From Filomicrobium sp. (lineage in GTDB: Bacteria; Pseudomonadota; Alphaproteobacteria; Rhizobiales; Hyphomicrobiaceae), in contig CP051234.1 in the NCBI GenBank assembly GCA_017792465.1, positions 1,180,606-1,244,605 on the forward strand: 64,000 nucleotides of DNA, given 5' to 3'. Below, one piece after another: positions 11,192-47,826 of this stretch. Below the pieces are notes generated by a model, which was not told the DNA's origin, made no database searches, and worked only from the letters and a program-made list of their open reading frames with translations. Each line of letters starts with the position of its first letter. Position 1 is the stretch's first letter. The position numbers and the translations under genes were made by a program.

Positions 11192-11354
11192 ATGTCATCG
11201 CGGATGCACAGCGAATAAATCGGCTTTTTGACAATTATCATAAGGCAGACACAACCGATCTGCGCACTATAATAAATCCCGGCAACCAAGTTCGCAGGTG
11301 CCGCCTGGCACTTCGCGCGCCGCCCACCAACCGCAAGCAATCCTCATCCAATCC

Positions 11355-13658
11355 ATGACGCAACCCGCAAAAAGCCCGATCAATCTGGTTTCCCGCGCGC
11401 TCATCAGCATCGCGCTCGCATCCTTGGTGATCGGCCTCACCGCCTGGGTCATGGGGTACTCAACAGCGGCGCAATGGATCTGGGCCATCGGTACGATCCC
11501 GGTGGCCACCGGCCTCTTGGTCTCTATCGTCGAGGACTTCCTGGCCGGGCGGGTCGGCGTCGACGCCGTGGCGCTTGTTTCGATGACCGCTGCCCTCATC
11601 CTTGGAGAGAACCTGGCCGGTATTGTCGTTGCCATCATGTATGCGGGCGGCTCGGTTCTGGAAGACTTCGCAATCGAGCGGGCGCAAAGCGATCTGAAAT
11701 CACTTGTCGACAGGGCACCGCGCGTCGCCCACCGCAGCACCGGAACTGCCGTCGAAGAAATTGACGTCGAGGAGGTCAAGGTCGGCGACCGCCTTCTGGT
11801 TCGTGCCGGCGAAGTCATTCCCGTCGATGGCATTCTGCTCGATGACGGCGCCGTCCTCGATGAGTCGGCACTCACTGGCGAACCGTTGCCGGTCGACCGG
11901 GACAAGGGCGAGACGCTCAGAAGCGGCTCGGTCAACAAAAGCGGCGCCTTCGAATTTCGCGCCACCGCAACGGCCGGGGAAAGCACATATGCGGGCATCG
12001 TGCGGATGGTCACCGCAGCCCAGGCCGCCAAAGCGCCGTTTATCCGGCTGGCCGACCAGTTTGCAATCTTCTTGTTGCCTCTCACTCTTGCCGTTGCCGG
12101 CGTTGCCTGGTTTGTTTCCGGTGATCCGGTCCGTGGCTTGGCGGTTCTGGTGGCGGCGACGCCCTGTCCGCTCATCATCGCGGCGCCTGTCGCATTCATC
12201 GCCGGCGTTTCACAGGCCGCACGCAAGGGCATCCTGATCAAGGGTGGCGGTCCGCTCGAAGCGTTGGCGCGCACGCATACCGCGATGTTCGACAAGACCG
12301 GCACGTTGACGGTGGGCGGCGCACGACTGATTGCAGTCGAAACTGCGCCTGGTGCGGATGGCGACGAGATCCTGCGACTTGCGGCGTCTCTCGAACAGGC
12401 TTCGCAGCATGTCGTGGCTGAAGCCATCGTTGAAGCGGCTCGCCATAAAGGCCTGTTGCTGGAGATCCCGGAACGCATCGACGAAGCTGTCGGCGCCGGG
12501 CTTTCGGGTCTCGTCGGTGGGCGCAACGTGCGGGCCGGGTCCTTCCAATACGTCTGCGGCACACATTCGGCCGAACCTTGGGCGCAAAGGGTCCTGCGGC
12601 GGGCGTCCTGGCGTTCGGCACTGAGTGTTTTCGTCGCCGTCGATGGGCGAACGATCGGAGCGTTGCTGCTGGCTGACGAACTGCGCCGCGAAGCCCCAAG
12701 ATCCGTGCAATTGCTGCGCCAACATGGCGTGAAGCGGATCGTGATGGTGACGGGAGACCGCGCGGATGCCGCCGACATTATTGGCGCGGCGCTGGATCTC
12801 GAAGGTGTGCTCGCCGACCGGGAACCGGCTGACAAGGTTCAAGCGGTGGCAACTGAACAGCGCCTTCACCCGACTTTGATGGTCGGAGACGGGATCAACG
12901 ATGCACCGGCTCTTGCCGCCGCCGATGTCGGCATCGCCATGGGCGTGCGCGGTGCGAGCGCCTCTTCGGAGGCCGCCGATGTGGTGTTGATGGTCGACCA
13001 GATCGACCGGGTCGCCGATGCCGTCGAGATTGCCAAGCACGCCCGCGGAATTGCTCTGCAGAGCATTGTTGTCGGGTTGAGCCTCTCCGGCATCGCAATG
13101 GGTTTTGCGGCGTTCGGACTGCTGAGCCCGGTCGCCGGCGCGCTGGCGCAGGAAGCCATCGATGTCGCCGTCATTCTCAACGCGCTGCGGGCCAATTTCA
13201 GTCCCTGGCGACCCGGCCACAAGATCATGCCGCAGGCTTCGGCAATCAAGCTTCGCCAGGAACACAAGGAGCTTGAAGTCTGGCTCGACCGGCTGCGTCA
13301 AATATCTGATGGTCTGGACGATGCCGACCCAGACGGCGCCGTCAAATTGATTGTTGAAGCCAACGGGATTGTTGCAGAGCAGCTCCTTGCGCATGAACAA
13401 AACGACGAGACCAGCGTTTACCCCCGGATTGGCAAGTATCTGAGCGATGGACATGGGCTTGGTGCGATGAGCCGCGCGCATCGAGAGATCATGCATCTGG
13501 GCCGCTTGCTTGAGCGGCTCACCAAAGACCTTTCGCCGGAGGATGCCGATCATTATCTCGTTCGCGACGCCCAGCGGGTCATTGAATCGCTTGAAGCGCT
13601 TATTCGCGTTCACAATGCGCAGGAAGAAGATATTTTCGAACACGCCGCGCGCGGCTGA
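11355..13658 (+). CDS. P1B-5-type metal-transporting ATPase with C-terminal hemerythrin domain
   Basis: A 767-aa P-type ATPase. The actuator loop has LTGEPLPV (173-180), the membrane metal site is TPCP (269-272, rather than CPC), the phosphorylation site is DKTGT (313-317), and the hinge is GDGINDAPAL. From about residue 635 a hemerythrin-like HHE domain follows, with ligands in RQEHKELE, HEQNDET, AHREIMH and HNAQEEDIFEH. TPCP plus a C-terminal hemerythrin domain defines the P1B-5 subgroup, whose Sinorhizobium member Nia exports Ni2+ and Fe2+. There is no N-terminal cysteine metal-binding domain. ATG at 11355 is favoured over an earlier in-frame codon. The metal here is inferred as iron or nickel. 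Confidence 0.88.
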   Translation: MTQPAKSPINLVSRALISIALASLVIGLTAWVMGYSTAAQWIWAIGTIPVATGLLVSIVEDFLAGRVGVDAVALVSMTAALILGENLAGIVVAIMYAGGSVLEDFAIERAQSDLKSLVDRAPRVAHRSTGTAVEEIDVEEVKVGDRLLVRAGEVIPVDGILLDDGAVLDESALTGEPLPVDRDKGETLRSGSVNKSGAFEFRATATAGESTYAGIVRMVTAAQAAKAPFIRLADQFAIFLLPLTLAVAGVAWFVSGDPVRGLAVLVAATPCPLIIAAPVAFIAGVSQAARKGILIKGGGPLEALARTHTAMFDKTGTLTVGGARLIAVETAPGADGDEILRLAASLEQASQHVVAEAIVEAARHKGLLLEIPERIDEAVGAGLSGLVGGRNVRAGSFQYVCGTHSAEPWAQRVLRRASWRSALSVFVAVDGRTIGALLLADELRREAPRSVQLLRQHGVKRIVMVTGDRADAADIIGAALDLEGVLADREPADKVQAVATEQRLHPTLMVGDGINDAPALAAADVGIAMGVRGASASSEAADVVLMVDQIDRVADAVEIAKHARGIALQSIVVGLSLSGIAMGFAAFGLLSPVAGALAQEAIDVAVILNALRANFSPWRPGHKIMPQASAIKLRQEHKELEVWLDRLRQISDGLDDADPDGAVKLIVEANGIVAEQLLAHEQNDETSVYPRIGKYLSDGHGLGAMSRAHREIMHLGRLLERLTKDLSPEDADHYLVRDAQRVIESLEALIRVHNAQEEDIFEHAARG

Positions 13659-33058: not shown

Positions 33059-35857
33059 TTATTCGGCGGCTATGGCCGTTTCGGGCGTTGCGTAGATGGA
33101 GGTGTATGGGTCGATCTCGCCGCGTTCGAGATGCGCGAGTTCGTTGGCGATATCGAAGAGCGCCTGCTGCGCGCCGCGGTAGCCGACCCAGGTGCGGCGG
33201 AAGCCGCCGATCAAATCGTATTGCGGGAAGCCGGCGCGCAGGACCGGGAGGCCAAGGCGTTTGGCTGAGTCAACGACATGCGAGTTGCCGATCACCATTT
33301 CGGCCTTGCCGTCACGGGCCAGCTGTTCGAGATCCTCCAGATCGCCGAGCTTAACGAGCGGCGCGTTGACCCGGGTCAGCACCGGTGCACTGCTGGGCGC
33401 GACGGCGGCGACCGTTTCGGCGCCCATCTCGGCGAGGAAATCGGAAAAGCCTTTGAGCAGATCAGGATCGTTGGCGAGCGCGAAACGTGTTGTCGTCACC
33501 GAGAAATGGCAATCGAGCATGGCATCGAGCAACTGCAAGCGCTGGCGTTCCATCCATTTCGGCACGGGCTGCTTTGATGCTTCGGCGAGCGCCGCGATGA
33601 GCGCATCGGTTCCGCCGAGCCCCATTACGTGATCGATACTGAAGGTCGGCACACCGGTGCGTTCTTCGAGAAGTTCTGCCGCGCGGCTTAAGGAATCTCC
33701 GATCACCAGGGTTGCTGTTGCAGCTCCCATGGTTTCCAGGAGATGCGTTCTGGTGCCGCCAATCGTCAAGGCGTTGAAGTCCTGATCGGTCAAGCGGCCA
33801 TCAAGCGAGTCTGACAAGTCCGGAACGACGAATGGGACGAGACCAAACGCTTCGACGTATGTTTTGATTTCGTCGATGTCGCCGGGCGTGAGAGCCGACC
33901 CGGCCAGGATGTTCAATTGCTGGGTCGGTTTGATTTCGCCGGCAGCGCGGGCTTCGGAGGTGTCGGGGACCAGTTCATCGATGATGGCATGGACGGCGGC
34001 GGCGAAGCCCGTTTCCAGGCAGCCTTTATAGTCGGGAGTCGACACATGGACGACGGTCGTCGCGTCATATTCCGGGTGCTTGTCGCGGAATTCCTTGAGG
34101 CTGCGTTCGACGTAGCTGCCTTGCGTCTCCGCCAGACCGGTGGTCGGCAGCCCGATGATTTGCGGGGCGGATTTTTTACAGATTGCCGCCAAGCCGTCGA
34201 CGACGTTTTCTTCTGCGCCCATCACCGTCGAGACCTGGTCCATGGCTGTGGTTTGCAGCGGGATCGGTTCGCGGAAGTGGCGGACAAAGAAAACCTTGCC
34301 GAAGGCGGTGCAGCCCTGGCTGCCATGCAGCATCGGCATCGACTTATGGAAACCGAGAAAGGCTAGGGCGGCGCCGATCGTCTGGCTGGATTTCAAAGGA
34401 CTGACCGACAGCGCCTTGTTGCGCTTGACGACCGGTGTCGGCTGGATTTCGGTCGTCGCCAGCTGTGAAGCTGATGCGCCATCTTCGTGCCAAGGGCCTT
34501 TCGATCTTGCCGCCGGCCAGACCGGTGAGTTGATCGTGAGCGACAGCTGGCGGGCCAGTTCGATCATGCCCTGATAACCGGCATAGCCGAAGTCGCGCTC
34601 CTGGTTGATGTCGAGGAACGGCACGCGGGCTTTGAGCGCGGTGTACATATTGCGACCGCCAGCGATCAATAGATCGGCGCGCTGGTCTGCGATCGTATCG
34701 AGGAGCGCGCGCGGGCTGCCGTCTTCCAGCATCTTGGCGTCTTCGCCCATCAGCTCACGGATACGCGCTTTATCTTCTTCGGTGGACTTTTTGGTGCCGG
34801 TTGCGACGACATCCATGCCGAGATCTTGAAGGGCCGCAATCACCGACCAGGATTTGACGCCGCCGGTATAGAGCAATGCACGCTTTCCGGTGAGCTTTGA
34901 GCGCCAGGGCTCCAATTCGTCGGAGATCCGCTGTTCTTCGCGCGCGATCAAGGCCTCTGTGCGGGCGATGAGGTCTTCGTCACCGATGATCCTGGCAAAG
35001 TTGCGCAAGGCATCGGAAACATCGCCGACCCCGTAGAAGCTGCCTTCAAACCAAGGCGTTCCGTAGGTCTCTTGCAGTTTGCGGGCGACGTTGATCATGG
35101 CCTTGGAGCAGACCATCATGTTGACGTCGGCGTGGTGCATGGCCTGCACCTGATGGAAGCGGGCGTCTCCCGACAGCGTGCAGATGACGCGCAAGCCCAG
35201 TTCATCAAGCAACGGAAGGACGTGCCAGAGTTCGCCGGCAATGTTGTATTCGCCGATCAGGTTGACGTTGTAGGTCTTGATGCCGGGGCGCAGGTTCGAG
35301 GTGTTGGCCTTTGGCAAATCTCCTGTGCCGACAACGTACTTCACCATCGCCTCGCCGGCGATGCGGTTGCCGAGGTTCTTGGTTCCGTAGAAGCCGGCGG
35401 CATCGACAGGTACGACCGGCACACCCCATTTCTCGGTTGCCGCCTTGCAGACGGCTTCGAGATCGTCTCCGACGAGCGCCGGCACGCAGGTGTTGTAGAT
35501 AAAGACGGCTGCGGGATCGTGCGTCTCGACGGCCTGCTTGATGGAGTGGAACAGGCGCTTTTCGCTGCGCCCCATGATGACGTCTTGTTCGGTGAGGTCG
35601 GTCGTCATGCCGATGCGGTAGAGCATCGGGCCAGACGAACGCGTTCCGCGGTTATCCCAGGACGATCCGGCGCAGGCGATGGGCCCGTGGACGATATGGG
35701 CAACATCGGCAATCGGGAGAAGCGCGATCTGTGCGCCATCGAACGCGCAACCACCGGCACTGGCGCCAGGCTTGGGTCTTGCACAACCGGATTTGGATTT
35801 CGCGTTGTGACCACAGGCTGGTTCGTCCAATAGCGCGGCAATTTCGCTCGACTTCAT
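33059..35857 (-). CDS. nifEN: NifEN fusion, FeMo-cofactor scaffold
   Basis: A single 932-aa polypeptide containing both NifE and NifN. NifE covers 1-459, with cysteines at 37, 62, 124 and 250, the positions known for Azotobacter NifE. A linker of about 17 residues (460-476, rich in Ala, Ser, Thr and Pro) leads into NifN, which begins with [16 protein letters not shown] and has its ligand cysteine in HGSQGC (516). No stop or restart occurs at the junction. NifEN converts the NifB-co-derived cluster to FeMo-co with Mo and homocitrate. The gene has its own sigma-54 promoter. A 1:1 NifE:NifN ratio is forced by the fusion. Confidence 0.97.
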
Positions 35858-40570: not shown

Positions 40571-42049
40571 TTATTCGGCAGCCTCAGCCTGTGGGGCTTC
40601 ACCCTGGCGCTTCCAAGGAGGCGTCAGGTTCGACCAGCATGGATTGTTCAAGGTCATATCCATGTCGCGGGCGAAGATGGCGAAGCCGTCGTAGCCGTGA
40701 TAAGGGCCGGAATAATCCCAGGAGTGCATCTGGCGGAAGGGAATGCCCATCTTCTGGAAGATGTACTTTTCCTTGATGCCCGAGCCGATGAGATCCGGCT
40801 TCACGCGCTTAACGAACTCTTCGAATTCGTAGCCCGTGACGTCGTCGTAGATGAGCGTTGCGTTGCCCATTTCCTTGATGGTGCGGTCGTAGTCGTCGTT
40901 GTGAGCGAACTCATAACCGGTGCCGACCACTTCCATGCCGAGATCTTCGTAAGCGCCGATGACGTGGCGCGGACGCAGGCCGCCGACATAGAGCATGACG
41001 CGCTTGCCTTCGAGGCGTGGGCGATACTTCTCGATGACCGCATCGGATTCTTTGCGGTACTTCGCGATGACGCGCTCAGCGCCTTCCTTGATCTTGTCGT
41101 CGAAGTGCGAAGCGATTTCGCGCAGGCTTTCTTCGATCTTGGTCGGCCCGAAGAAGTTATATTCAAGCCACGGAATACCGTACTTCTCTTCCATGTGCCG
41201 CGAGATGTAGTTCATCGAACGGTAGCAGTGGAGAAGGTTGAGCTTGACCTTCGGGGTCAGTTCCATTTCCGACAGCGTGCCGTCACCCGACCACTGAGCA
41301 ACGCAGCGCAGGCCCATTTCTTCGAGCAGGATGCGTGAAGCCCAGGCGTCACCGCCGATGTTGTAGTCGCCGATGATGGCAACGTCGTAGGGGGTTGCTT
41401 CCCAGCTGGTGTCGTTGTCGCGCTTGTCGAGGACCCAATCGCGAACGGCGTCGTTGGCGATGTGGTGACCCAGCGACTGCGAAACGCCACGGAAGCCTTC
41501 GCAACGAACCGGAACGACAGTCTTTTCGATGTCCTTGGCCTTCATCTTGGCAACGGCTTCAATGTCGTCGCCGATGAGGCCGATGGGACATTCGGACTGA
41601 ATGGTGATGCCCTTGTTCAGCGGGAACAGCTGATCAATCTCGTCGATCAATTTGGCAAGCTTCTTGTCGCCGCCGAAGACGATGTCTTTCTCCTGGAAGT
41701 CGGAGGTGAAGTTCATCGTACCGAAGACGTTGACGCCTGTCGTGCCGACGTAATAGTTGCGGCGACCGGCTCGCGAATATTGTCCACAACCGACAGGGCC
41801 GTGCGAGATGTGGATCATGTCCTTGACCGGGCCCCAGACCACGCCTTTGGATCCGGCGTATGCACAGCCGCGGATTGTCATGACGCCGGGGAGGGAGCGG
41901 CGGTTCGACGTAATACACTTCTTGGACTGCTCGACCTCCTGGTCGTTGACAGCCAAGTGCTTGGCCCGATCTTTCTTGGCCTTTTCTGGATAGACTTCGA
42001 GGACTTCCTGGATGAGGGCCTCGGTTTCGTCGCGCGTTAGTGCCGACAT
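40571..42049 (-). CDS. nifD: NifD, nitrogenase MoFe protein alpha subunit
   Basis: A 492-aa catalytic subunit. P-cluster cysteines 62, 88 and 154, FeMo-co ligands Cys275 and His442, and the active-site residues Gln191 and His195 are all at the A. vinelandii positions, so the subunit should bind normal FeMo-cofactor and reduce dinitrogen. The stretch [20 protein letters not shown] is typical. It follows nifH by 139 bp. Confidence 0.99.
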
Positions 42050-42188
42050 CTTAAATCTCCTTGCACCAGTGAAACTAATCCATTCACACCGGCAACTCGG
42101 TGGTTTCGAATAAGAGGTTCAGGCTGGCCTACTCCAACGGATTCAAAGTCGCGCCGAGTAGAACCCCACCTGAGACTGTCGTGCAGCG

Positions 42189-43112
<924 letters not shown>

Positions 43113-43172
43113 TCAATTCCCCGAAACTCGGTTTTTCGAAGCGACGGTCTGAATGACGCTCCGACACCAAAC

Positions 43173-43187
43173 GCAAAGGCTGTGCCA
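43173..43187 (-). promoter_or_regulatory. Sigma-54 promoter of nifH
   Basis: The minus strand reads TGGCACAGCCTTTGC, a perfect TGGCAC-N5-TTGC. It lies 88 bp before the nifH ATG. The 568-bp gap to the SIR2 gene holds this promoter, its NifA site and the oppositely oriented SIR2 regulatory sites; nothing else is seen there. Confidence 0.95.
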
Positions 43188-43285
43188 GTTTTAACTTTTT
43201 CTTTAAGATGCTGTTGTTGCTCGTACTTTTCTGGGTATCGTCATTTTTGTCGGGCGTTGTCTTATCGACAATTCCTCCAACCAAA

Positions 43286-43301
43286 TGTCTTAGGAATTAC
43301 A
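43286..43301 (-). promoter_or_regulatory. NifA upstream activator sequence of nifH
   Basis: TGT-CTTAGGAATT-ACA is a perfect TGT-N10-ACA site 99 bp upstream of the -24 element, the standard geometry. Confidence 0.85.
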
Positions 43302-43509
43302 TCTGTGACGGCGTCTCGCGACAAATAAAAAGCCGAGTGTTTTTATATGGATTGGGGAAATGATGCAGTCGATTGGCAAGATCACTTCAGTAATATTCAA
43401 GGACTACTGATCGGCCGTTTTTGAGATCGTTTTTCTACGCGTTGGCGATCGGCGAATTTGGGTGCGCCTGACCGGTGCGACAGCTCTGCGTCATGCATCC
43501 TGCACGGCC

Positions 43510-43525
43510 TGTCACGTTTCAAACA
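43510..43525 (+). promoter_or_regulatory. NifA upstream activator sequence of SIR2-hemerythrin unit
   Basis: TGT-CACGTTTCAA-ACA is a perfect TGT-N10-ACA site 64 bp upstream of a -24/-12-like element on the plus strand. Confidence 0.65.
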
Positions 43526-43588
43526 ATTCAAGCTGAGCGGCGTGCGGTGCGCGCCTTAAAACGTGGTCTCTCAGGCGCTTCGGGCGTG

Positions 43589-43603
43589 TGGTGCAAAACT
43601 TGC
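43589..43603 (+). promoter_or_regulatory. Sigma-54 promoter of SIR2-hemerythrin unit
   Basis: TGGTGCAAAACTTGC keeps GG and GC at 10-base spacing with a TTGC -12 half. It lies 51 bp upstream of the SIR2-like ATG. Confidence 0.6.
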
Positions 43604-43653
43604 GTTGCCTTCCTTAAAGCAATTGACTCTTGTTGGATGAAGGAGAGCCGACG

Positions 43654-44529
43654 ATGGCGCAGCCCAACCTTGATAAACTCTTCGAAGATCTCGCTACTGG
43701 ATCGCTTGTTCCTTATCTGGGTCCGGGCGCACTCGCTGACGTTGTCGATCAACAAAGCGGTCAATCCATGCCGGCCGACAGCGACAGCCTTATCCTGGCG
43801 ATGAACGGCGGGAAGCCGATGGCGCCGAAGCTGATGTATGAGTTTCCGCGCGCGGCGATGAACCAGGAACTGAAGAAAGGCCGTTCGTCGGTCACGCGCT
43901 TCCTGAGCGAACTTTATTCGCGCGACAGCTGGACGACCGGTGCCGTGCATGCCTGGCTTGGCGCACTTAAACCCGACTACCTGATCGATACGAATAGAGA
44001 CCTTACCCTCCAGAACATCTATTCCGACCGGCCGCATCTCCTCATCCAGGGCGTCTCGCGGATCGGCGGAACCGAGTATCGCTTCAAGATCTTCAACTGG
44101 GATGGCGAACGCTACGCGGAGATCACGCAAGAAAACGCCGATCCTTCGCTGCCGATCCTTTTCAAACCCATGGGTTCGCCGGTGCCGGAAGCCAATTACG
44201 TCGCCAGCGACGCCGATTATGTCGACTACATCACAGAACTCATGGGCGGGTTTGCGATCCCCAGCTTTGTCAAGAAATTGCGGGTGGGTAAGCAGTATCT
44301 ATTCCTGGGCCTGCGCATGACGCGCGATACCGAGCGGATGGTTCTTTCTGACATCATCTACGGCGCGCCCTCACCCAAGGGGTATGCCGTCATTGCCGAT
44401 CCGACGGAGAAGGAAATCAAGTTCTGCCAGCGTATGGATATCGAGATCGTCCGCATGCCATTAGCCGATTTCGTCAAGGCGGCGACCGGATCTTCTTCGG
44501 AAACGGCAACGGCTGATAGCGCCGCTTGA
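43654..44529 (+). CDS. SIR2-like domain protein next to nifH
   Basis: A 291-aa protein with a SIR2-like fold. The N-terminus has LVPYLGPGALAD, resembling the GAG NAD-loop, and later WLGALKPDYLIDTNRDLTLQ, matching the NTN-type nicotinamide pocket, and AVIADPTEKEIKF. AAGGAGAG precedes the ATG at 43654. SIR2-like proteins near nif occur in other diazotrophs, including Azotobacter relatives, but their substrate is not known; deacetylation, NAD cleavage or ADP-ribosyl chemistry all remain possible. It overlaps no gene and is followed 40 bp later by a bacteriohemerythrin. Confidence 0.75.
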   Translation: MAQPNLDKLFEDLATGSLVPYLGPGALADVVDQQSGQSMPADSDSLILAMNGGKPMAPKLMYEFPRAAMNQELKKGRSSVTRFLSELYSRDSWTTGAVHAWLGALKPDYLIDTNRDLTLQNIYSDRPHLLIQGVSRIGGTEYRFKIFNWDGERYAEITQENADPSLPILFKPMGSPVPEANYVASDADYVDYITELMGGFAIPSFVKKLRVGKQYLFLGLRMTRDTERMVLSDIIYGAPSPKGYAVIADPTEKEIKFCQRMDIEIVRMPLADFVKAATGSSSETATADSAA

Positions 44530-44568
44530 GCTTGCGCGAACAATTGGCTCTGACAGCGGGAGGCGACA

Positions 44569-44967
44569 ATGGGTGTTCTTGTCTGGTCGGATGAACAGAT
44601 GGGCCTTGGCCGGCAGGATATGGACGACACGCATCGGGAGATGGTCGATCTCATCAACCGCGTGGCCGAAGCGGGCAAGGAATCCTTCGCTCAACGCTTC
44701 GGCGAGCTTGTCGCGCATACGCATCAGCATTTTGCCCACGAATTGGAGCTCATGCAGGCGTCGGGTGATCCGGCACAAAAAGAGCATGAGCACCAACACG
44801 CGAAATTATTAGGGGAATTGGCTGCGATGCAGGCGCGCGTGAATCGTGGCCAATTCACAATGGCGCGTGCATTCGTTGCTGAGCGATTGCCCGAGTGGCT
44901 CCAGTTGCATGCCGCATCGATGGACAGCATGCTTGCAGCACATCTCAAAAATTCAGAAAAAGCCTAG
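44569..44967 (+). CDS. Bacteriohemerythrin
   Basis: A 132-aa diiron oxygen-binding protein. Iron ligands fit MDDTHREMVDLI (His22), HTHQHFAHELELM and HEHQHAKLL, with a final acidic region before MDSMLAAHL. It would bind or store O2 in the cytoplasm and could lower free oxygen near nitrogenase. GGGAGG precedes the ATG. It follows the SIR2-like gene and probably shares its NifA-type promoter. Confidence 0.9.
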   Translation: MGVLVWSDEQMGLGRQDMDDTHREMVDLINRVAEAGKESFAQRFGELVAHTHQHFAHELELMQASGDPAQKEHEHQHAKLLGELAAMQARVNRGQFTMARAFVAERLPEWLQLHAASMDSMLAAHLKNSEKA

Positions 44968-45019
44968 CCATCTCTTCGGATTTGGCTGGGCTGGATTGGA
45001 AGCTGAAGCTCAAGAGATT

Positions 45020-45646
45020 TCAATCGCTGTCTGGAGCAAAGCACACCTGCTTTTCGCTACAAACCTCACATGACGGAGCGCGGCAGATGTAGATGCCTTC
45101 GCCTTCGCAAAGCTTTTTGTAGAGGAATTTTTTCCAGCGCATGTTCTTGGTATTCTGGAAGGCCAAGCGCGGGAAGTTGACGCGCATTAATTCCGTCAGT
45201 TGCGGCCGGGAGATCAATCCCAGATCCGACCAGAGATGATCGCGCCCCATGCAGCCGGCGCAAATGAGTTCGGCGATCCAGCGTTCGGAGCGTGATCGGC
45301 CGGTGCGATGCGTCAACAGAAGGTGGCGGAGATCTTCAACTTCGTCGCCTGTTTCTGGCTGCTCGCGGCTGGCGCTCGACGGCATTTCTCGTGCGGTGAC
45401 GGGAAAATGGAAGTCGAGCATCTCGCGGAACATGGCTGTCGGCAGCCCCATCCATCTTGGAAGGGCCCCTTGTCCCGCCATCCAGGTCGCGCTCATTCCG
45501 GCGATGTAGGCATCGTTAACATCGCCGCGCGCCGACTGCATGAGCCGGTTATAGATGACGAGCTTGGACGACGTTTTGCCGAGCGGTTTTGCTTTCCGCC
45601 CGGCAGGTTTCTGTTTCACGACATTCGATGCAGGTGTCGCGAGCAT
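45020..45646 (-). CDS. nifQ: NifQ, molybdenum donor
   Basis: A 208-aa protein that supplies molybdenum to NifEN. The cysteine motif near the C-terminus reads CRAPSCEVCSEKQVCF, with CAGCMGRDHLW before it, the NifQ Mo-Fe-S cluster pattern. ATG at 45646 begins right after the ferredoxin stop. It ends the nifB operon and faces the hemerythrin gene. Confidence 0.93.
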   Translation of the reverse strand: MLATPASNVVKQKPAGRKAKPLGKTSSKLVIYNRLMQSARGDVNDAYIAGMSATWMAGQGALPRWMGLPTAMFREMLDFHFPVTAREMPSSASREQPETGDEVEDLRHLLLTHRTGRSRSERWIAELICAGCMGRDHLWSDLGLISRPQLTELMRVNFPRLAFQNTKNMRWKKFLYKKLCEGEGIYICRAPSCEVCSEKQVCFAPDSD

Positions 45647-45648
45647 TC

Positions 45649-46005
45649 TCAGTACTCGACCAGGATGTCTTCGTCGCGAACGATGAACTGGCAGGCCAGG
45701 CGCCATTCGCCCGTGCGGTCGACCGTGACCAGATCGTCGAGTTGCTCTTTCGTCAGCTTGCCAAGTTCGCGCAGCTTGACTTGCTCCTTCATCGTCAGGC
45801 TGACGCCCATTGGAGCTTTCCCGGCATCCTTGCCAATCTGCGTTACGCGGACGAGGCAGCTTCCGCAGTCACCGTCCTGGCAATCGAAATTGATCGGGAT
45901 CTTGTTTTCCTGGGCGATCTTCAGGATCGATTTGGTGTGGCTTCCCGCGACAGCGTAGACCGTTCGATCTTTGTAGTCGGGGTTTGAAAAAGTGATCAGT
46001 GCCAT
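45649..46005 (-). CDS. [2Fe-2S] ferredoxin (first of two)
   Basis: A 118-aa plant-type ferredoxin with CQDGDCGSCLVRV and a distal LACQF cysteine. It carries an insertion of about 35 residues between the third and fourth cysteines (GKDAGKAPMGVSLTMKEQ). ATG at 46005 is used. It sits between another [2Fe-2S] ferredoxin and nifQ. Confidence 0.88.
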   Translation of the reverse strand: MALITFSNPDYKDRTVYAVAGSHTKSILKIAQENKIPINFDCQDGDCGSCLVRVTQIGKDAGKAPMGVSLTMKEQVKLRELGKLTKEQLDDLVTVDRTGEWRLACQFIVRDEDILVEY

Positions 46006-46446: not shown

Positions 46447-47763
46447 TTATCCAAGCGCCGAAAAATCGATCTCTTTGGCGACGCCGGCGCCTGTCAGATG
46501 TCTCGACAAGCTCTCGCCGAAATCCCGGCAGGTCTGGAGTTCTTCATCGGTCGGGTGAAGCTTGATACGGACGCCTTGTTCGGGCACGCGCATCTTGAGG
46601 CCACGCATGCGGTCCTCGACCATGCGGACAGCCTCACCGGTCCAGCCGTATGAGCCGAACGCCGCACCGAGCTTGCCGCGCATTTCGATGTCGATGAGGC
46701 CTGACAAGAGATCCCAGACAAGCTTGACGGCGTCGCCGTTGATCGTCGGCGTTCCGAAGACGAGGCCGTCGGCTTCCTCGATGAGATCGACGAACGGGGT
46801 GATCTCGCTGCCCTGCAGGTCGTAGACCGAGGCGCGGACGTTCGGGATCGAGCTTGCGCCTTCGTAGATGGCTTTTGCCATCTGCGCCGTCGCGCCATAT
46901 GCGCTGACGTAAAAAATCAGAAGTGTTTTTTCTTCGCCGTCGATTTCGCTTTGCAGCTTGGGCTTTACGAGTTGGCGGTAGTGCTGGAGGTATTGCCGCG
47001 GGTGCGAGCGCAGGATCGGTCCGTGCGAGGGCGCGATCATCGTAATCTCCAAAGGCTCGATCAGATCGAGCGCTTCGACGACGAACCGGCGGAACGGCCG
47101 CATGATGTGGTCGAAGTAATATTCGAAAGCGAAACGGAAATCGCCGACGCGATCATTGAAGAGCCGGTCGTCGCAGAAGTGGCAGCCCAGCAAATCGCAT
47201 GTGAACAGCAGCTCGCTTTCTTCAAGGTAGGTGCACTGCGTGTCGGGCCAGTGCACATAGGGCGTGCACAGGAATGACAGCGTGCGGTCGCCCAGCGAAA
47301 CCTTGTCGCCGGTGTCGGTCATTGTGCACTGATACTTTTCAAAGTCGTCTTTCAGGAGGGCGCGTAGCACCTTGATGCCGCGATGCGAAACGTAGATATG
47401 CGCTTGCGGCGCGCGGCGGAGCAGCTCGGGTACGGCCCCGGTGTGGTCGGGTTCCAGGTGGTTGAGGACAAGCGCCGTGATCTCGCTATAATCGGCGACC
47501 TGTTCAAGGCGCTCGAAAAAGACGTCGTTGAATTCCTGTTTGACCGTATCGATGACGGCAACGCCTTCGCTGCCGCGCACGGCGTAGGAGTTGTAGCTGG
47601 TCCCATTGGCCGTCTTCAGGATAACGTCGAACGAACGCAGATCAGGATCAAGCGCACCGATCCAATGGACGCCATCCATAACCTCGACGACGCCGTCAGG
47701 TGTCCCTGCGGCGCCAATGGTTTTTGCCGTTTGTTCTATGGCCATGTTCGCGCCGCTTGCCAT
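46447..47763 (-). CDS. Flavodiiron protein
   Basis: A protein of about 438 aa with an N-terminal metallo-beta-lactamase-like diiron domain and a C-terminal flavodoxin domain. Diiron ligands fall in NHLEPDHTGA, YVHWPDT, CDLLGCH and SHGPILR, and the FMN loop is YVSAYGATAQMA. It reduces O2 to water or NO to N2O with electrons from a reductase or ferredoxin. ATG at 47763 (MASGANMAIEQ) is chosen from two candidates. It is encoded in the nifB operon, where oxygen removal is a plausible role. Rhodobacter FprA is a related nif-linked protein. Confidence 0.93.
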   Translation of the reverse strand: MASGANMAIEQTAKTIGAAGTPDGVVEVMDGVHWIGALDPDLRSFDVILKTANGTSYNSYAVRGSEGVAVIDTVKQEFNDVFFERLEQVADYSEITALVLNHLEPDHTGAVPELLRRAPQAHIYVSHRGIKVLRALLKDDFEKYQCTMTDTGDKVSLGDRTLSFLCTPYVHWPDTQCTYLEESELLFTCDLLGCHFCDDRLFNDRVGDFRFAFEYYFDHIMRPFRRFVVEALDLIEPLEITMIAPSHGPILRSHPRQYLQHYRQLVKPKLQSEIDGEEKTLLIFYVSAYGATAQMAKAIYEGASSIPNVRASVYDLQGSEITPFVDLIEEADGLVFGTPTINGDAVKLVWDLLSGLIDIEMRGKLGAAFGSYGWTGEAVRMVEDRMRGLKMRVPEQGVRIKLHPTDEELQTCRDFGESLSRHLTGAGVAKEIDFSALG

Positions 47764-47826
47764 TCGCGTTCCTCTAATGGTCCGCGAAGATTGCTGACTT
47801 GGCACAGCCGATGACCCAGGTCCGAA

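Follow-up and report, generated by a model that had tools for sequence, protein, structure and literature searches.

Among described nitrogen fixation genes, the closest counterpart of the locus analysed here appears to be pnfA of Pseudomonas stutzeri A1501. According to the available portions of Yan et al. (2010; PMC2820453), pnfA lies divergent from nifH, has a promoter with a TGT-N10-ACA site and a -24/-12 element, depends on NifA and RpoN for its expression, as measured by qRT-PCR in A1501, and was reported only in diazotrophs in the authors' comparison. These portions also state that nitrogenase activity at 0.5% O2 fell to 23% of the wild-type level in a non-polar pnfA mutant, and that the mutant approximated the wild type under argon or anaerobically, and lost nitrate-supported anaerobic N2 fixation, with nifH transcription unchanged; the mutant was still Nif-plus, growing on nitrogen-free semisolid medium. 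The same text notes nitrogenase switch-off in A1501 although its authors found no DraT/DraG, and it likens PnfA to UspA/ETF, not to SIR2 (PMC2820453). In the part of a 2024 paper available to us, a table labels PST_1325 a "SIR2 family protein" (PMC11332353). The phenotype of PnfA comes from one paper and from a genus other than that of the DNA studied here. Since the nitrate phenotype arose without O2, the need for PnfA is not confined to the presence of O2, and O2 by itself cannot be the trigger; respiration, or NO formed from nitrate, would fit both the O2 and the nitrate phenotypes.

A related gene group has been described in Azoarcus BH72. In the accessible text of the papers concerned, azo0536 has predicted RpoN and NifA sites (PMC3916325) and sits between draT and dcrH1; azo0536 and dcrH1 were induced under N2 fixation but draT was not, and a secondary promoter was suggested (PMC8467165). 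From these descriptions, we infer that azo0536 corresponds to the SIR2 gene, and dcrH1 to the hemerythrin gene, of the kind discussed below. The BH72 group thus resembles our locus in being a gene pair linked to N2 fixation with RpoN/NifA sites predicted for azo0536, but it has draT before the pair, whereas the genome studied here gave no draT match. In an Azoarcus Tn-seq paper, the main text, as far as it was available, mentions neither azo053- or azo054- genes nor SIR2 or hemerythrin.

We analysed a stretch of 64,000 nucleotides (the window) from Filomicrobium sp. (contig CP051234.1), whose genome is a single contig of 4.47 Mb. A SIR2_2-domain gene and a bacteriohemerythrin gene, both on the plus strand, lie there between nifHDK (minus strand) and a nifQ-ferredoxin-ferredoxin-flavodiiron ... 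nifB-nifA group (minus strand; Table 1). The original prediction, made from the letters of the sequence, had placed a SIR2-like gene and a hemerythrin gene divergent from nifH. Indeed, both genes scored above their Pfam cut-offs and nifH lies on the minus strand; the start coordinate given in that prediction, 43510, is that of the NifA site. For the SIR2 gene, we took the ATG at 43654 as the start, although the longest frame would open at a TTG at 43630. The 39 bases that separate the SIR2 stop codon from the hemerythrin ATG contain no terminator-like site, and the two genes are probably carried on one message. No draT lies between nifH and the SIR2 gene in the window, and Rfam gave no match across positions 42000-46000.

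Table 1. Features of the SIR2-hemerythrin locus in the window, and genes of related loci (L numbers; positions within each locus).
Feature	Position	Strand	Basis
Predicted pnfA orthologue, SIR2_2-domain protein	43654..44529	+	PF13289, AlphaFold2, Foldseek, motif conservation
Bacteriohemerythrin, 132 aa	44569..44967	+	PF01814, TIGR02481, alignment, PDB relatives
NifA-type upstream activator TGT-N10-ACA TGTCACGTTTCAAACA, placed for SIR2-hemerythrin	43510..43525	+	Motif scan; like placement in relatives
Sigma-54 -24/-12-like element TGGTGCAAAACTTGCG, starting 65 bp before the SIR2 ATG	43589..43604	+	Motif scan
Second TGT-N10-ACA site, placed for nifH	43286..43301	-	Motif scan
nifH -24/-12 element TGGCACAGCCTTTGCG	43172..43187	-	Motif scan
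nifH, divergent neighbour of the SIR2 gene	42189..43085	-	Gene call
nifQ, convergent with the SIR2-hemerythrin pair	45020..45706	-	PF04891
Flavodiiron protein (ODP lactamase + flavodoxin)	46447..47805	-	Domain search
nifT-linked SIR2 genes	L085 7950-8888; L086 7977-8819; L087 7956-8867; L088 5992-6834		Neighbourhood of nifT
185-187 aa family members	L062 8847-9404; L133 11155-11718		

Gene order, size, published label and context identify the window SIR2 gene as the predicted orthologue of pnfA. In one related genome (G259, locus L133), we found the order nifA-nifL-rnfABCDGEH-nifY2-146 aa-187 aa-SIR2, followed by divergent nifHD(K). This is the order published for PST1313-PST1328, in which pnfA is PST1325 (available portions of PMC2820453). 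The L133 genes nifA, nifL and rnfA, B, C, D, G and E scored above NCBIfam cut-offs, and rnfH fell just under its own (73.3 versus 75 bits). PnfA has a reported mass of 31.7 kDa in the same portions of that paper, and the window protein (291 aa) one of 32.1 kDa. PnfA is thus like the window protein in its position divergent from nifH, its TGT-N10-ACA and -24/-12 promoter, its size, its SIR2 label and its place in the gene order. The PnfA side differs, as judged from L133, in having a 187-aa gene rather than a hemerythrin gene next to the SIR2 gene and an adjacent rnf operon. The original prediction had called a protection system of this kind not described. That claim does not hold for the gene, its promoter and a mutant phenotype, as those of pnfA had been published (PMC2820453, as available); the window locus belongs to a described but unexplained kind, and the pair is not new.

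The promoter elements announced by the original prediction, a TGT-N10-ACA site and a -24/-12-like element ahead of the SIR2 gene, were both found (Table 1). In the 568-bp nifH/SIR2 intergenic region, each direction has one TGT-N10-ACA site and one -24/-12 element (called by a GG-N10-GC rule), two of each in all. On the SIR2 side, TGGTGCAAAACTTGCG starts 79 bp past the start of TGTCACGTTTCAAACA, keeps GG-N10-GC intact and matches 8 of 11 consensus letters; it is weaker than the nifH-side TGGCACAGCCTTTGCG, which matches 10 of 11, and was missed by a stricter scan that allowed two or fewer mismatches. TGT-N10-ACA alone is common, with 11 occurrences in the window against a mean of 6.5 in shuffles, 3 out of 100 of which reached 11. 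The module in the SIR2 direction appeared in 27 out of 5000 dinucleotide shuffles of the 568-bp region, and the whole window contains seven NifA plus -24/-12 modules under the same rule.

Upstream of the SIR2 gene in related loci, we detected the module in 41 out of 78 cases, whereas shuffles of two-base blocks gave an expectation of 0.42. The 78 loci are those with at least 300 bp upstream, drawn from the best 80 of 305 relatives in named genomes, and the 41 module-bearing loci include many close relatives and so are not 41 independent cases. The -24/-12 element started 48-74 bp before the position aligned to the window SIR2 start codon in 40 of the 41, with a like placement whether or not draT lay upstream; the module was absent under the scan rule in 37 out of 78 loci. 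As a predicted element, the SIR2-direction module exceeds chance, and its conservation across loci is stronger evidence than the shuffles of window DNA. The original prediction had assigned both genes to the nif regulon, and this putative membership is well supported by the recurring module together with the NifA/RpoN dependence published for pnfA (PMC2820453, as available).

We then asked how the family is distributed. In the order to which Oceanobacter mangrovi belongs (reference L079, G004), named Oceanospirillales in NCBI and presumably Pseudomonadales in GTDB and taken here to include Pseudomonas, the SIR2 protein matched 15 out of 341 genomes. All 15 were among the 18 genomes of this sample that are nifD-positive, that is, with a score above the curated cut-off; one of the 15 SIR2 genes contains an in-frame TAG and another is divided between two contigs. 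In the window's class, the family profile matched 6 out of 289 genomes (window included), all among the nine that are nifD-positive; five of the six matches were weak (62-90 bits, with the window protein at 490) and could be members of the nifT-linked subfamily described below. Pooling both samples, 21 out of 21 genomes with a family match were nifD-positive among 630 searched, the window's own counted. None of the genomes without nifD above the cut-off in the two samples (341 and 289 genomes) has the SIR2 gene (Fisher p about 1e-23 for the order and 1e-10 for the class, kinship ignored). The SIR2 family is confined to nifD genomes in the samples searched; 3 out of 18 nifD genomes in the order and 3 out of 9 in the class are without it.

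Closer to the window, nifD scored above the cut-off in 3 out of 39 relatives, the window's own genome included. The original prediction would have been weakened by an absence of the pair near nif in relatives; in a broad search the pair was present there, although none of eight other genomes of the genus, several of them incomplete, had nifD above the cut-off. The window SIR2 gene lies in a gamma-type nif cluster, and its relatives span alpha-, beta-, gamma- and zetaproteobacteria, judging by record titles. Window NifD is 82-91% identical to NifD of SIR2-bearing clusters, mostly gamma- and betaproteobacterial; identity was 83.5% to NifD of G380, a genome of the same order with the SIR2 gene, and 71% (L158) and 76% (L159, a fragment) to that of two other relatives. 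In its available portions, a 2024 Nature paper describes a Hyphomicrobiaceae nif regulon of gammaproteobacterial origin, with a hemerythrin gene in the figure (PMC11208148). Matching SIR2-hemerythrin pairs occur in L002, titled Hyphomicrobiaceae, and in the same-family genome G361 (1.8 Mb), which carries the pair at L145 (SIR2 67%, hemerythrin 55%) and in which only a nifE-type match was found, in a 955-codon open frame. Because L002 and G361 carry such pairs, a similar gammaproteobacterial acquisition of the window nif cluster is likely.

The SIR2 protein matched PF13289 (SIR2_2) with 33.8 bits (cut-off 24.5) and contains the motifs PYLGPGAL (residues 20-27), DTNRD (112-116) and KPMGSP (171-176). 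An AlphaFold2 model (pLDDT 90.1, pTM 0.89) had its best PDB matches by Foldseek in DSR2, KomC/HAM-SIR2 and ThsA (E 1e-10 to 1e-8), with a TM of about 0.57-0.62, an rmsd of about 5-7 and 12-17% identity among the 50 matches listed. DSR2, ThsA and HAM-SIR2/KomC act in defence and hydrolyse NAD by means of a catalytic His. The window protein shares their predicted fold, but the PnfA-type family lacks this His. Met173 occupies its position, and in an alignment of 81 sequences, this position is Met in 60 and Leu in 21, with KP(M/L)G in all 81. The alignment also has PYLG and DxNRD, and Asn114 and Asp116, the pocket Asn-x-Asp, are invariant (81 out of 81). In four canonical SIR2_2 proteins taken from relatives, the motifs read (T/S)xNxD and KLHGS, with the catalytic His in all four, one of them with an insertion before the His (KLNGDIHGS). 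A profile-profile comparison with these canonical proteins was not significant for the PnfA-type family (E 0.13) or for the nifT-linked subfamily (E 0.19), so the equivalence of KPMG and KLHG leans on motif order, the fold and intermediate homologues, of which 2 out of 5 have KPHG or APHG. A PDB sequence search with the SIR2 protein and an hmmsearch with the family profile returned no match.

Of the features that mark an active SIR2 protein or SIR2-NADase, the predicted model has the SIR2 fold, with moderate TM-scores, and the pocket Asn-x-Asp is kept, but the catalytic His of the HG motif is missing. The original prediction had spoken of an NAD-using SIR2 fold; the fold and the pocket Asn-Asp stand, but with Met or Leu for His throughout the family, the use of NAD is doubtful. 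PDB titles among the fold matches include NAD+ bound to DSR2 H171A, and loss of the His is therefore compatible with NAD binding. Because the SIR2 fold keeps the pocket Asn-Asp but has Met or Leu in place of His, the PnfA family is most likely to bind NAD(H) or a ligand of the ADP-ribose type and to leave it unhydrolysed.

An active, NAD-consuming SIR2 enzyme that modifies NifH or drains NAD as O2 rises, acting as a DraT-independent switch-off, is an unlikely account of the family. It would suit the relation of the fold to NADases, the invariant Asn114 and Asp116, the adjacency of draT in 24 of 29 nifH-linked loci, and the switch-off noted without draT/draG in A1501 and described as unresolved in its basis in A. 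chroococcum (available text). However, all 81 proteins have Met or Leu for His, nitrogenase activity falls rather than rises when PnfA is lost, and no PADLOC model matched the window SIR2 protein. The missing His led us to lower the active-sirtuin reading. A role in defence, prompted by the SIR2 fold, was set aside on the PADLOC result.

A second SIR2 subfamily linked to nif lies near nifT in rhizobia and others and is homologous to the PnfA-type family (hhalign E 7.8e-33), with about 27-30% identity in the 40 of 72 plasmid records listed. These proteins have Trp for the pocket Asn in 5 out of 5 and keep the His in 2 out of 5. No hemerythrin was found among the annotated genes of four nifT-linked regions, the annotation of which is incomplete, and one nifT-linked relative gave a weak ThsA match among the PADLOC models (20.8 bits). 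We grouped Rcc03262 of Rhodobacter capsulatus and, possibly, ZMO1821 of Zymomonas with this subfamily by position and label only; in the available part of its source, Rcc03262 was not found in the proteome of a nifA mutant. Like the window protein, the rhizobial nifT-linked proteins and Rcc03262 are nif-linked SIR2_2 proteins.

The hemerythrin scored above the cut-offs of PF01814 (31.8 bits, cut-off 25.3) and TIGR02481 (74.7 bits, cut-off 51.75) and fell short of the stricter bacteriohemerythrin model NF033749 (73.5 versus 84). Residues H22, H54, E58, H73, H77, H114 and D119 match all seven positions of what we take to be the diiron-ligand pattern, each ligand being kept in 52 or 53 of 53 alignment rows. 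Its PDB relatives 4xpx and 4xpw are bacteriohemerythrins of the same fold family with the same ligand pattern; the window protein is unlike them in its genetic context, the nif regulon. Among 62 SIR2 loci with enough downstream sequence, a same-strand hemerythrin lay within 2.5 kb downstream of the SIR2 gene in 45 by tblastn and in 46 by hemerythrin profile; the 46 comprise 37 plus nine hits whose stop-to-stop segments open before the SIR2 end, and equal the 45 tblastn loci plus L016. No hemerythrin was found within 2.5 kb in 16 of the 62, nor within about 1.5 kb downstream in the 15 SIR2-bearing genomes of the Oceanobacter mangrovi order, of which seven were read for 10-13 kb downstream with the same result. 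The pairing of the original prediction is thus common but not general: the hemerythrin is a frequent, not an obligatory, companion of the SIR2 gene. Because it is missing beside the SIR2 gene throughout the order sample, we lowered the likelihood of a core function that depends on hemerythrin.

Other small genes recur at these positions. A family of 185-187 aa with no Pfam match comes after the SIR2 gene in 18 out of 80 loci, often before the hemerythrin gene, and stands next to the SIR2 gene in place of a hemerythrin in 4 of the 15 genomes of the Oceanobacter order. In 20 out of 80 loci (for example, L015 8870-9103), the SIR2 gene is followed by a member of a 77-aa, Cys-containing family that likewise lacks any Pfam match.

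The original prediction had seen the pair as an oxygen- or NAD-responsive protection system for nitrogenase. Protection from oxygen was borne out only in part: at 0.5% O2 the pnfA mutant was impaired, and under argon it was not, but nitrate-supported fixation was also lost without O2. A broader version is an O2/NO protection unit, in which hemerythrin, together with the neighbouring flavodiiron protein, would buffer O2 or NO while the protein with the SIR2 fold would detect the redox result and shield nitrogenase. We consider this possible but tentative. It accords with the hemerythrin downstream in 46 of 62 loci, with the flavodiiron protein cluster in 22 out of 81 SIR2 loci (many loci being too short to show the gene), and with the pnfA mutant, in which fixation suffers under O2 and under nitrate (which may give rise to NO) yet not under argon alone; it sits poorly with the lack of a hemerythrin beside the SIR2 gene in 15 genomes of an order taken to include Pseudomonas, the genus in which the mutant was studied. 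The window flavodiiron protein is a possible O2/NO reductase and, as such, a candidate for nitrogenase protection.

To describe the upstream side, we chose neighbourhood genes by similarity-weighted picking; greedy longest-ORF picking lost the SIR2 gene in 19 out of 81 loci. Divergent nifH was present in 29 out of 53 SIR2 loci with at least 7.9 kb upstream, and in 24 of these 29, draT lay between nifH and the SIR2 gene. A frequent order was nifH, divergent from draT-SIR2-hemerythrin ... draG; Pfam assigns representatives of neighbour clusters 5 and 12 to DRAT and ADP-ribosylglycohydrolase. This recurrent order speaks for the SIR2 protein as an accessory of DraT/DraG, which would read or shield the Fe protein in its ADP-ribosylated form or would tune the NAD supply to DraT. 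Such a role is nevertheless improbable. DRAT gave no match in the window genome (positive control, 5 out of 5 genomes), nor did DraG, for which matches came from other genomes, 5 of the 11 searched; draT was present in 10 and not found in 5 of the 15 SIR2-bearing genomes of the Oceanobacter order. SIR2 function therefore does not require DraT. The pnfA phenotype, moreover, was observed in A1501, whose authors found no DraT/DraG (PMC2820453, as available).

The reading we prefer, to which we give a probability of about 0.5, is that the SIR2 protein is a PnfA orthologue, transcribed under NifA and sigma-54, that binds NAD(H) or ADP-ribose without hydrolysis and sustains nitrogenase after translation during respiration. 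It builds on what is established here for the locus and family: the identity, the promoter module, the predicted fold, the lost His and, within the samples, occurrence in nifD genomes only. In this mechanism, sigma-54 RNA polymerase under NifA would transcribe the SIR2-hemerythrin pair, and the DSR2/ThsA-like fold would bind NAD(H) or an ADP-ribose-type ligand and leave it intact. The PnfA-type protein would then act after translation, keeping nitrogenase active during respiration of O2 or nitrate. It might do so by informing the electron supply of nitrogenase about the redox state of NAD or, alternatively, by shielding the Fe protein. The hemerythrin would be a lineage-dependent partner that may bind O2 or NO nearby. 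A bolder form, which we regard as rather doubtful, is that a dedicated diazotroph pseudo-sirtuin binds NAD(H) or the ADP-ribosylated Fe protein and gates nitrogenase to respiration without DraT/DraG, with hemerythrin as the gas-sensing partner in many lineages. If true, the pseudo-sirtuin could be a missing component of nitrogenase switch-off in species without draT.

The gene matters because it is confined to diazotrophs in the samples searched and because, in one model, most of the nitrogenase activity under microaerobic conditions depends on it; the literature, as far as available, labels pnfA-type genes only hypothetical or "SIR2 family protein". A His-less SIR2 fold, often beside draT and hemerythrin, offers a concrete biochemical hypothesis, NAD/ADP-ribose binding, with relevance to the tolerance of nitrogenase for respiration and to switch-off in draT-less species. 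In the open PMC literature, as far as its text was available, we met no account of PnfA as a His-less SIR2 fold, of its nif-restricted distribution at comparable scale, or of the recurring draT-SIR2-hemerythrin order beyond Azoarcus. Nor did we meet SIR2, hemerythrin and nifH joined together in that literature.

Elsewhere in the window, a 932-codon ORF (33059-35857, minus strand) contains two nitrogenase component 1 stretches and represents a natural NifE-NifN fusion; a NifA site and -24/-12 module lie upstream of it (36001/35941). The window also encodes a P-type ATPase (11298-13658, plus strand) with a C-terminal hemerythrin (HHE) domain at residues 652-780.
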